Source: Microlunatus soli (GTDB lineage Bacteria; Actinomycetota; Actinomycetes; Propionibacteriales; Propionibacteriaceae). Taken from it: a stretch of DNA of 64,000 nucleotides. The stretch covers positions 2,294,001-2,358,000 of the forward strand of contig NZ_LT629772.1 of assembly GCF_900105385.1 (NCBI RefSeq). The letters run 5' to 3'. The position numbers were made by a program, and so were the translations under genes. The notes below the pieces were generated by a model. That model was not told the origin of the DNA and did no database searches. It saw only the letters and a program-made list of their open reading frames with translations. Of this stretch, positions 12,013-57,514 are shown in pieces (within the stretch, counting starts at the first letter, position 1; each line of letters opens with the position of its first letter).

Positions 12013-13512
12013 TCAAACCGCGTGTTCCGTCCCCGCTTCGACGAGCAGATTGTCCACGATCAGCCGACGGATCTGCGGCAGCATCTCATCGGCGAGTTCT
12101 TCGGCCTGCAGGCCGAGGATCGCCGCCACACCCCCGAAGATCTGAACCAGCGTCAGTTCCCCGTCACACGCCCCCAGCACCCCGGCGAGAGCGGTATCGG
12201 CGCGTACGGCTCGTCGGAATCCGCGCTGCTGACGCAACACGATAGCTTCTGGATCCGCAACTCCGGGCATCCCGACGGTTTCCTGTCGTACGTCGGGCGC
12301 CAATTGCCAGTGTCGGCTCAGCAGCTCGGCGTCGGTCAGCCGCTGTTCCAGGTCGACCGCGGCGACTCTGGCAGCCCAGGCGTGCCCGATCGGTTGCTCG
12401 ACCGGGTGCGGCCAGTCCTCGATCGTCACCACCGGCTGCTCGCGGCCGGCGTTGGTGAACATCAACCACCCCATTCCGACCGACTCGATACCCAGTCGGT
12501 CGAAGTAGTCACACCAACGGCGATAGGCGTCGGCATATTCCGCTGCCCCGACCAGGCCGGCGTCGGCGAGCCAGATCTCGACGTACTCGTAGGCGTCCAA
12601 CACCTCGCGGCGGACGATATGGGCGTCACAACCGGTCCGGGTCGCCCATTCGGCCAGCCGGTCCTGCCACGGCTGGTCGCGCAGTTGCGCCCAGTTGCCG
12701 AGCACCTGCAGGCTGCCGCCCGGGTTGAGTCGCGCGGCGCCCTCCTGCACCACCCGCTGCACCAACTCGTCGCCGACCAGTCCTGCCTCCCGGTAGGTCA
12801 GCCGGCTGTCCCCCGGCGGGGACATCACGTACGGCGGATTGGTCACGATCAGGTCGAAGGTTTCGTCCGGCACCGGTTCGTAGAGGCTGCCCTCGCGCAG
12901 CTCGACGTCGACCTGATTGAGCCGCATCGTGGCCGCCGCCAACTCCAGCGCCCGCCGGTTGACGTCGGTGCCGACGACCCGGTCGGCGTGCCGGGCCAGG
13001 TGCAGGCTCTGCACGCCGCAGCCGGTGCCGAGGTCCAGCGCGGAGCCGACGGGTTGGCGCATCGTCAGCTCGGCCAGGGTCATCGACGCCGGCGACACCC
13101 CGAGGACGAAGTCGTCGGCGACCGGCGTCATCGGCCCGTCCAGGCCCGGGGTCAGATCGGAGAAGATCCAGCCGGACGCGCCGTCGTCGCTGCCGTACGG
13201 TCGCAGGTCGACCAGCGCGCGAGCCTGATCATGATCGATCCGGACCAGCCCGGCGGTCGACAGTGGCTGCACCAGGCCCGGCAGCGCCGCGTCAAGATCA
13301 TCCAGCGGTACGGTCGCCTGCAGCGGCCAGAGTTTGGTCAACGTCGCCAACGGACCATGATCATCGGCGATCGCGCGGCGGGCCGGGGTGGTGTTGTTCC
13401 GACCCAGCGCGGCATGCTCGGCAGCACCCACCAGCGCGACGATCGCGTCGACGGTGTAGTCGAGCTCGGTGAACCGTTCCCGGAGGCGGCGAAGATCATC
13501 ATCGGCTAGCAC
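12013..13512 (-). CDS. Large class I SAM-dependent methyltransferase (HemK/RlmG-like)
   Basis: 499-aa protein. The N-terminal 130 residues are a helical region. A Rossmann methyltransferase follows, with SAM motif ALDLGTGCGVQSLHLA and the substrate-loop signature IVTNPPYVMS of N-methyltransferases acting on planar amides or bases. The C-terminal 180 residues have a winged-helix-like ending. The actinobacterial relatives sit beside topA. The GTG at 13512 is the best supported start, because upstream the same frame runs into the non-coding repeat region. Substrate unknown; rRNA or protein glutamine are both possible. Confidence 0.85.
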   Translation of the reverse strand: MLADDDLRRLRERFTELDYTVDAIVALVGAAEHAALGRNNTTPARRAIADDHGPLATLTKLWPLQATVPLDDLDAALPGLVQPLSTAGLVRIDHDQARALVDLRPYGSDDGASGWIFSDLTPGLDGPMTPVADDFVLGVSPASMTLAELTMRQPVGSALDLGTGCGVQSLHLARHADRVVGTDVNRRALELAAATMRLNQVDVELREGSLYEPVPDETFDLIVTNPPYVMSPPGDSRLTYREAGLVGDELVQRVVQEGAARLNPGGSLQVLGNWAQLRDQPWQDRLAEWATRTGCDAHIVRREVLDAYEYVEIWLADAGLVGAAEYADAYRRWCDYFDRLGIESVGMGWLMFTNAGREQPVVTIEDWPHPVEQPIGHAWAARVAAVDLEQRLTDAELLSRHWQLAPDVRQETVGMPGVADPEAIVLRQQRGFRRAVRADTALAGVLGACDGELTLVQIFGGVAAILGLQAEELADEMLPQIRRLIVDNLLVEAGTEHAV

Positions 13513-14458
13513 GACGACATCGTGACACAATGCGGCTCCGGCAGCCGACCGGCTGCTCCTCCCGCCCTCGCGTGCACCCGGACACGGTGGACAGGAGGCG
13601 GATGCGGCCCGTGGTCGCCCAGCACTCGCTTCTGACCTTCGTCCTCGCGCCGGCAGCCTGGCGATCTTCGTTCCCACCGTGATCAGCCCCTGATCTCCGA
13701 CACGGCGCCGGGAAGCATGGGCACGTCGCGACCGAGCGCCCGCGACCTCGCGACCTCGGACAGTCGACCGAACTTTAGTGCTGCGTAAGGGAGCGGTCTC
13801 AGACGGTGAAGTGGGGGCGCGAACTTCGGACAGTCGACCGAATTTCCAGGCGGCGAGTGACCTGAGATCGCGAATTCTGGACACTCGGCCGAACTTCGCG
13901 GCGGCGTACGACGGCGGGCCCAGACGTCGGCGCAGCACACCCGACGCGAGCTGGACCGGACAGTACGGACGCGAATTCTGGACACTCGGCCGAACTTCCG
14001 GGCGGCGAATGGCGGTGGGGCGGTGAATACTGGACACTCGGCCGAACTTCGAGGTGGTCGACGTCGTTCCGATGGCTGAGGTGACATCAGTTGCACAGGG
14101 CCGAGACGTTGATCGCGACTCCGGAGTAGCGGTCGTCCTCAGCAACACCGCCCTTGCGAGTCGCGCGAAGACGCGGCGGCCGCCGAGGTCGCCACGTTGA
14201 TCAACGACGCCGCCGATCTCGCGCCGTGGGGGCGGGCCGTACGAACGACAGATGGTGCCGACAGATCGCCGACCTCGAGCACCGACCGTCGAGGACGACT
14301 CAACGATCGGCGTCGCCGCAGCTCGGACTCGAAGGCATCCGGCCGAGTGCCCCGGGTCGGCACTGATCGCCGTGCTTACGGCCGAACTGAGTCTGCACCT
14401 CCGTGCCCCGACCATGATCACTGGGTCGGGTCCGACCTCCGCGCGTAGGGTGATCGTC
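13513..14458. other. Long non-coding interval with repeat cluster
   Basis: 946 bp lie between the divergent methyltransferase and PPOX genes. Open frames run through both strands because of GC content, but none shows a recognisable protein. The centre holds five copies of a short repeat (13758-14049). No RNA gene or mobile element was recognised. Confidence 0.6.
13758..14049. repeat. Five-copy GGACACTCGGCCGAACTT repeat cluster
   Basis: Core copies start at 13758, 13828, 13879, 13980 and 14032. The first two read GGACAGTCGACCGAA(C/T)TT and the last three GGACACTCGGCCGAACTT. Copies 3 and 4 are preceded by CGCGAATTCT, and copies 2-4 are followed by a GGCGGCG block. Spacings are 70, 51, 101 and 52 bp, suggesting a roughly 51-bp period with one missing copy. 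Spacers differ in length and sequence, so this is not a CRISPR array. Confidence 0.85.
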
Positions 14459-14851
14459 ATGGATCTCAGCGACGATCTGCTTCAGCTGCTGCGTGGCCCG
14501 GCGATCTGTTACCTCGCCACCACCATGCCGGACGGCTCGCCGCAGCTGACCCAGACCTGGGTGGACACCGACGGCAGGAACATCATCATCAATACGGTCG
14601 AGGGCTATCGGAAGGTCCGCAACATCGAACGGGATCCCCGGGTTGCCGTCACGATCGCCGACCCGGACCGCCCACACCGCTACTTCGCGATCAGAGGACG
14701 GGTGCTGTCGGTCAGCACCGACGGCGGCGTCGAAGGCATCGAGGCGCTCGCTCACAAATACACCGGACAGCCCTACTCGTGGCACGGCGGCCGTGATCAA
14801 GTCCGGTTGGTCCTGACTGTTGCGGCGGAGCGCATCCTCCCGCACGGCTGA
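14459..14851 (+). CDS. PPOX-class F420-dependent oxidoreductase-like protein
   Basis: 130-aa split-barrel flavin/F420-binding protein. The N-terminal LLRGPAICYLATTMPDGSPQLTQTWVD is the family hallmark, followed by NTVEGYRKVRNIERDPRVAVTIADP and a terminal RVVLTV-like strand. Such proteins reduce small substrates with F420 in actinobacteria. The ATG at 14459 gives the canonical N-terminus; longer in-frame extensions enter the repeat region. No clear operon partner. Confidence 0.9.
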   Translation: MDLSDDLLQLLRGPAICYLATTMPDGSPQLTQTWVDTDGRNIIINTVEGYRKVRNIERDPRVAVTIADPDRPHRYFAIRGRVLSVSTDGGVEGIEALAHKYTGQPYSWHGGRDQVRLVLTVAAERILPHG

Positions 14852-31725: not shown

Positions 31726-32835
31726 TCAGCCTCCGGTACCGAGACGGTTGGATCTGATCAACAGGAAGATCAGGTACGGGGCGCCGATCACGGCAGTGAG
31801 GATGCCGACCGGCAGTTGGACAGGGAGCAGGTGTTGACCGGCGAAGTCGGCGACGCTGACGACCAACGCTCCGACCAGGCCGGCGGGGATCAGGGCGGTG
31901 CCGGTGCCGCGGGTCAGCCGACGGGCGATCGGACCGGACACGAAGGCCACGAAGCCGACCGGGCCGGCTGCAGCGGTCGCGATCGCGGCCAGTGCGACGC
32001 CGAGCAGGATCAGCAGCAGTCGGGATCGCTGCACGGCAAGGCCGATCGACTGTGCGGTGTCGTCGCCGAGCTGCAGACCGGACAGCCAGCCACCGGCGAT
32101 CAGGGTGACCGGGACGATGATCACGGCCAGGATCGCCAGCGTGGTCATCGTCGAGGTGGACGAGGACGACAGTGACCCGGTCAGCCAGAGCAGAGCCGTC
32201 TGCGCATCCTCCACGGTCGCCCGGGTCATCTGGTACTCGATCACGGCCGACATCACCGCTGCCATCCCGATGCCGATCAGGACGAAGCGGTAGCCCGACA
32301 ATCCGCCGCGATAGGACAACAGGTAGATGATCAGCGCAATCACCAGAGCACCGGCGAAGGCGAAGACCGAGATCGTGATGCCGCCCAGCCCGAGCATCAG
32401 GATCCCGAAGACGGCCGCGGCGCTGGCGCCCGAGGTGACACCGATGATGTCCGGGGTGGCCAGCGGATTCCTGATCATGGCCTGGAAGATCGCGCCGGAG
32501 ATGCCGAAGCACAGGCCGACCAACATGCCGGTGATCACTCGCGGCAGTCGCAGGTCGTAGACGATGAAGTTGGTCGCCGATGTCCCGCGGCCGGTCAACG
32601 CGTAGAACAGCTCGGACAGGCCGAGCGGGAAGTCACCGACGATCATCGCTGCGCAGAACACCACCAGCAGCGCGATCAGCAACCCGATGCAGACCATGAT
32701 CGTCCGCCGCAGCAGCCGATGCCGTACGCTCCGGACCCGACCGAAGTCGGCACGGCCCAGCGGCGTTCCGCCGAGCTCGGTCACGGGTCCCTGAGCTCCG
32801 GCCACCGAGCCCTGAGCCTGTCGAAGGGCGGTCAC
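31726..32835 (-). CDS. Ferric-siderophore ABC permease (FecCD family), second subunit
   Basis: FecCD permease with the family signatures GISGAIFQAMIRNPLATPDIIGVTSGA and GPVGFVAFVSGPIARRL. Eight to ten membrane helices. The N-terminal 40 residues are not membrane sequence. They include an in-frame copy of the dispersed repeat (32810-32828, reading LRQAQGS) and DFGRVRSVRHR. The true start may be downstream of the repeat. The annotated ATG overlaps the preceding permease stop by 4 bp, supporting coupling. Confidence 0.93.
   Translation of the reverse strand: MTALRQAQGSVAGAQGPVTELGGTPLGRADFGRVRSVRHRLLRRTIMVCIGLLIALLVVFCAAMIVGDFPLGLSELFYALTGRGTSATNFIVYDLRLPRVITGMLVGLCFGISGAIFQAMIRNPLATPDIIGVTSGASAAAVFGILMLGLGGITISVFAFAGALVIALIIYLLSYRGGLSGYRFVLIGIGMAAVMSAVIEYQMTRATVEDAQTALLWLTGSLSSSSTSTMTTLAILAVIIVPVTLIAGGWLSGLQLGDDTAQSIGLAVQRSRLLLILLGVALAAIATAAAGPVGFVAFVSGPIARRLTRGTGTALIPAGLVGALVVSVADFAGQHLLPVQLPVGILTAVIGAPYLIFLLIRSNRLGTGG
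32810..32828. repeat. Dispersed repeat CCCTGAGCCTGTCGAAGGG, copy 2
   Basis: 19-bp copy at the junction of the two FecCD genes, translated as part of the N-terminus of the second. A partial copy (TCCCTGAGCT) lies at about 32788. Confidence 0.85.
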
Positions 32836-56960: not shown

Positions 56961-57514
56961 ATCTTCACCATGGGGCGAATCGGCGTCACCTGTTCGGCGA
57001 TGACCGCTCGATTGTGGACAACGGTCGGATCGTGTACGCCGGGGCTGTGGAAAACCACCGGCACCCGGTCAGCAGCGGTCAACCGGTTCCAAGATCAGAC
57101 GATCGTCCAAGGTTCGCGCGACCGTCAGGAGTGGACCAGAAAATTGGTGACGGACCCTTCTCAAATGGCGTCGGCAGGAGTACAACTGATGCCAAGAAGA
57201 ACTGAATGATCTCGTACCGAGTGCAGACCGGGATTGTTGTCCTGCTTAGGTTTTGATCGGTCCGCCCGCTGTGTCGGACTGTCGGCGACGATGCCGAGTC
57301 GGCCCGCTGTGGCCGTCCGCAGTCGGCGCGATGATCATCAGTGATTCTTGCGCAGGAACCAAGTACCCACGCGGTGATCACCCATCCGCAAAGGGCAGTT
57401 GCGATCCAGGCTTGCCTGGGCCAACACATAGTGTGCACGCTTGGTCGCTTGGATGATTGCGCAAGCCGGCGCCCACCCGTCAGGTGTGGGCGCCGAGCTG
57501 TGTGCGGGCTGCTG
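56961..57514. other. Intergenic stretch ahead of ssd
   Basis: 554 bp. TGTGGACAA (57013-57021) and TGTGGAAAA (57046-57054) are DnaA-box-like, about 53 bp upstream of ssd. A strong hairpin lies at 57467-57495. The short open frames carry no recognisable protein. Confidence 0.55.
57467..57495 (-). terminator. Hairpin terminator downstream of the Fic-like gene
   Basis: Perfect 10-bp arms CGGCGCCCAC and GTGGGCGCCG with a 9-nt loop, 20 bp past the stop of the Fic-like gene. Confidence 0.75.

Follow-up and report, generated by a model that had tools for sequence, protein, structure and literature searches.

The window, by which we mean the whole stretch of 64,000 nucleotides that was analysed, derives from the Microlunatus soli chromosome and contains an array of short direct repeats between two divergent genes. 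The array spans 13751..14050 on the + strand and is contained in a gap at 13513..14461. The gap is flanked by a gene for a class I methyltransferase with DUF7059 and MTS domains (12013..13512, - strand) and by one for a pyridoxamine 5'-phosphate oxidase-like (PNPOx-like) protein (14462..14851, + strand), both assigned by gene prediction and domain scan. The initial annotation had described this interval as free of genes. Indeed, a codon-usage caller predicts no gene in the approximately 950 bp; long open frames run across the interval that holds the array.

The cluster of five repeats reported there is real. The copies start at 13758, 13828, 13879, 13980 and 14032, all on the + strand. The last three carry the quoted 18-mer exactly; the copies at 13758 and 13828 deviate from it by two (GGACAGTCGACCGAACTT) and three (GGACAGTCGACCGAATTT) mismatches, respectively. 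By chance, the 18-mer gave a mean of 0.10 matches per shuffle, and five matches were never reached in 100 shuffles. The corresponding 26-bp sites (family positions -7 to +18) are located at 13821..13846 (unit 2), 13872..13897 (unit 3), 13973..13998 (unit 4) and 14025..14050 (unit 5) on the + strand, the last three with an exact core. Units 2, 3 and 5 were found by the 18-mer match, the R1 model and the weight matrix, and unit 4, which scored highest genome-wide when the first model was run, by the 18-mer match and the R1 model. For unit 1 we give only the core (13758..13775, + strand), which has a degenerate left arm and reaches 20.8 bits with the R1 model. Measured from start to start, the units are 70, 51, 101 and 52 bp apart, so that the proposed spacing of about 51 bp or multiples thereof holds for three of the four distances and fails for one. 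The spacers of this array are partly alike (GGCGGCG), which we take as a trace of local tandem duplication. A related sequence that had been pointed out at 32.74 kb lies within a predicted gene (31726-32784, - strand) and is missed by the family model; it is thus not a member. Another weak unit-like sequence (GCGAACCTTGGACGATCGTCTGATCTTGG) is present in a predicted gap at 57084-57116 on the - strand, with a matrix score of 18.9; it is absent from the family-model matches in the window.

The earlier idea of a dispersed element family is supported: the same genome contains 57 units, which are distributed over about 23 loci between genes. We searched the 6.73 Mb genome, a single contig and the one genome of the species that was covered. 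The census was built stepwise by a core search of the genome, which gave additional copies at several places, again arranged as direct repeats of this type, followed by model R1 (23 units), model R2 (54 units) and a weight-matrix scan, with 150 candidates scored per genome in the underlying model searches. Most loci hold two to five units in head-to-tail order (full range one to five). Neighbouring units are 51-53 bp apart in 21 of 31 cases, a pitch close to five helical turns at about 52 bp; distances of 63-65, 67, 70, 78 and 101 bp also occur, and the phasing is hence not strict. All loci with predicted genes are intergenic, the locus at 6.53 Mb being outside this gene-context count. The arrays sit between convergent genes in six cases and between divergent genes in two to three, the remainder being in tandem gaps.

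The conserved part of the unit is a 26-bp site, GAWTTYYGGACACTCGKCCRNWTTTC, whose edges are dyad-symmetric and whose consensus reads GAW-TTY-Y-GGAC-ACTC-GKCC-R-NWT-TTC. Column information is approximately zero outside positions -10 to +18, with steep increases at -7 and +18. The symmetric contacts consist of GA at -7,-6 facing TC at 17,18 and of GG.C at 0-3 facing G.CC at 8-11. The degeneracy is also mirrored over the dyad: position -1 is a pyrimidine (Y) and position 12 a purine (R) in all 57 units. Invariant positions (1, 3, 7 and 8) adjoin the freely varying positions -4, 9 and 13. Since the units were gathered by core similarity, the conservation of the core is overstated; this bias bears less on the abrupt edges and on the difference, within the core, between positions that never change and those that vary freely. 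The centre of the site, A-S-T-C, is conserved and asymmetric, which would be unusual for a plain homodimer operator. A sharply bounded double-stranded site of 26 bp that is kept while the DNA in between drifts points to recognition by a putative protein.

The array had also been suggested to be a structured RNA, a reading that includes 3'-UTR hairpins transcribed from the arrays. In its favour, an imperfect hairpin with ACTC as its loop can be drawn from the consensus. The data give this proposal no support, and we consider it hardly credible. Covariation lies below that of shuffles (the observed score was attained in 491 of 500), and the cells of the hypothetical stem are paired in 80.6% of cases compared to 81.2% in shuffles. 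At the -1/12 pair we find C..A in 15 units and T..G in 23, a pattern that contacts with DNA would produce but a hairpin would not. For the whole window array, neither strand folds better than its shuffled versions (z-scores of 0.21 and -0.15), and Rfam gave nothing at gathering score in the window, the two sub-threshold matches both being outside the array. Additionally, the orientation of the arrays is independent of transcription of the flanking genes: in tandem gaps, seven point in the same direction as the genes, six in the opposite direction, and one locus has both. Single units at first seemed to show compensatory changes, but these did not hold up when counted. A covarying hairpin is excluded as far as the data allow.

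The same gene arrangement bears on the proposal of an operator array, i.e., of sites bound cooperatively by a protein that regulates transcription of the genes next to them. The dyad symmetry of the site and the near-helical pitch would fit such a function, several of the neighbours are themselves regulators (LacI type, response regulators, HxlR), and the array in the window is placed between divergent genes. However, at the six loci between convergent genes no downstream gene start is available, the arrays in tandem gaps show no common direction, and among the flanking proteins scanned the neighbours share no pathway or function. From the missing common pathway and the six loci without a downstream gene start we conclude that ordinary operators are improbable.

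Arms of dyad symmetry around an asymmetric overlap are also the anatomy of the core sites of tyrosine or serine recombinases, which could rearrange arrays or cassettes. The length of 26-30 bp, the conserved asymmetric centre (recombining sites need identical centres) and the direct repetition of the sites would agree with this. Yet no genes or cassettes are present between the 52-bp units, no recombinase gene was found among the flanking proteins scanned, and the site is unlike the dif-like site of this genome. We therefore consider core sites of this type very improbable.

Comparison of the units within and between arrays gave insight into how the arrays may have grown. Core identity is 0.79 within arrays and 0.72 between them, a difference that label shuffles never reach, and flank identity is 0.42 within and 0.32 between. 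Spacer likeness exceeds that of shuffles in only three arrays, namely those at 535 kb, at 813 kb and in the window; between most loci the spacers share nothing, and their information content is near zero. Together, these values fit arrays that grew by duplicating locally in tandem and whose spacers then drifted as the core was retained. The G/C skew of the spacers follows the replication strand (+0.21 in co-oriented compared to -0.08 in anti-oriented arrays, P 0.004), as is expected of neutral, drifting DNA that has long been in place. The window array is an exception to this trend, having G-rich spacers though it is anti-oriented. Origin and terminus were placed by dnaA (approximately 3,056,300-3,057,994) and by a dif-like site (CTGTCCGATAAGCTACATTATGTCAAGT) at 6,350,649, which agree with the change in skew; the contig does not start at dnaA. 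A KOPS-like orientation of the units along the replication strand was considered and dropped, the count of 17 co-oriented versus 9 anti-oriented being not significant (P 0.17 by array strand groups).

Some arrays share more than the core. Those at 1.523 Mb and 5.337 Mb resemble each other over approximately 136 bp, including about 45 bp past the last unit, and at the 5.337-Mb array this stretch beyond the last unit coincides with the 3' end of a Na+/H+ exchanger gene, which suggests that flanking DNA was copied together with an array. The array at 690 kb has one spacer in common with that at 6.44 Mb. The likeness past the last unit and the common spacer suggest that pieces larger than the core have been copied between loci. 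We also noticed that 30 bp at 97% identity adjoin two arrays (L062 4129-4158 and L072 4026-4055), the copy in L072 being the 3' end of the Na+/H+ exchanger.

Outside of this genome the family was not found. The initial annotation had reasoned that a core confined to this one place and lacking in relatives would imply chance duplication. The core does occur elsewhere in the genome; that no other tested genome has it is the part that stood. Model searches found no members in 19 congeners, and the family was undetected in 292 other genomes of the order, searched with the model under stricter filters and with few candidates scored. Run over GTDB r220, a strict degenerate pattern matched four times, each time in isolation and in distant phyla (Bacteroidota and Clostridia), which we read as chance. 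Two isolated pattern matches came from the viral collection and a single 34-bp match from the plasmid collection, while the phage collection had none; with no useful match among them, an origin from a phage, plasmid or virus was dismissed. A literature search gave no papers on this repeat family. The transaldolase-zwf gap holds two units here; in the nearest of the congeners compared (88% identity in transaldolase) it lacks units and measures about 240 bp less. A gain of the locus in our genome is possible, and the empty gap in relatives may instead reflect a loss. The gap after a TrmH-like gene contains two units here and measures 670 bp, compared to 46-571 bp in those congeners that keep the adjacent pheS. 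At the window locus the compared congeners have different genes upstream of the methyltransferase, so that no readable empty site is offered there.

These observations bring up a selfish or neutral interspersed repeat (MITE/MIRU/REP-like) without a role for the cell, in which the core would be conserved as the recognition sequence of a mobilising enzyme. Detection in one genome, the strictly intergenic location and the orthologous transaldolase-zwf gap without units all speak for it, as do the 136 bp shared by the 1.523- and 5.337-Mb arrays and the spacer shared by the 690-kb and 6.44-Mb arrays. Conserved cores with unrelated spacers could also arise if a mobile unit of approximately 30 bp were inserted again and again at a fixed pitch. 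Against this stand spacers that look old and drifted next to intact cores, a head-to-tail pitch of 52 bp that differs from REP dimers, and arrays at which neither element ends nor target duplications were seen. A REP-associated tyrosine (Y1, PF01797) transposase also has no match in the genome, with control genomes positive; we rejected mobilisation by a RAYT on this ground. All in all, we regard the selfish repeat as a real though somewhat doubtful possibility.

Most bacterial interspersed repeats are either hairpins that Y1 transposases mobilise or tandem repeats with uniform units. By layout, the nearest known system is MIRU, tandem repeats of 46-101 bp at 41 loci of the M. tuberculosis chromosome (PMC3914561). 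The likeness lies in the tandem arrays at many intergenic loci, MIRU having first been described as intergenic repeats. In our family, however, conservation is limited to 26 bp per 52-bp period, this conserved part is dyad-symmetric, the whole unit is not conserved between loci (0.32 for flanks and spacers), and the orientation of the arrays is independent of the genes. REPs form hairpins that carry an unpaired tag and are mostly arranged as head-to-head or tail-to-tail dimers; the GTAG types come with RAYT transposases, whereas for the CGTC types no dedicated transposase is reported (PMC3733652). With REP/BIME elements of the GTAG and CGTC superfamilies, our family shares that the repeats are short (20-40 bp), palindrome-like and intergenic, frequently occur in groups and are restricted to a species or clade, and intergenic, dispersed and grouped copies are found here as well. 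It differs from them by its head-to-tail arrays and by having neither a covarying stem nor a Y1 transposase. CRISPR arrays are similar in their direct repeats, regular pitch and unlike spacers, but the repeats here are imperfect (0.79 within arrays), the spacers of 22-26 bp drift and are sometimes shared, and each of the approximately 23 loci carries one to five units; no cas genes were found among the flanking genes scanned. Finally, the matS and Noc site families comprise tens of dyad-symmetric sites across the chromosome that are bound by one protein. In contrast to these, our sites form phased arrays, are distributed chromosome-wide without confinement to origin or terminus, and were detected in one species. 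The best reading is consequently that of a bacterial interspersed intergenic repeat that is partly MIRU/BIME-like.

We tentatively favour an intergenic repeat family, detected only in this genome, whose core is kept as a putative protein-recognised DNA site and whose spacers drift. The 26-bp site is most likely a docking site for a putative DNA-binding protein. A sequence-specific and probably dimeric protein would recognise the site as double-stranded DNA and occupy several phased sites together. The arrays would then serve chromosome organisation or a recombinase or transposase, and not the transcription of one neighbour. The family could have spread by occasional copying into new intergenic sites, and arrays may have grown by tandem duplication, after which the spacers would drift with the core held. 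One may go further and speculate that the arrays are phased docking sites of a putative lineage-specific chromosome-organising or site-specific recombination protein, and that the site spread to about 23 intergenic places in one species and is under selection; this we consider rather unlikely. If a binding protein is found, it would link the repeat family to chromosome architecture or to a mobile system. If none is found, the family would be a clean case of a lineage-restricted repeat.

Marginal family-model matches at 4013324 (E 0.005) and 6422298 (E 0.002) may represent further loci. At the 6.380 Mb locus (piece L074 3862-5226), an IS256/Mutator-type element with inverted ends sits between two units. 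Without this element, the two units would be spaced by nearly 78 bp, a value that is seen in two other arrays.
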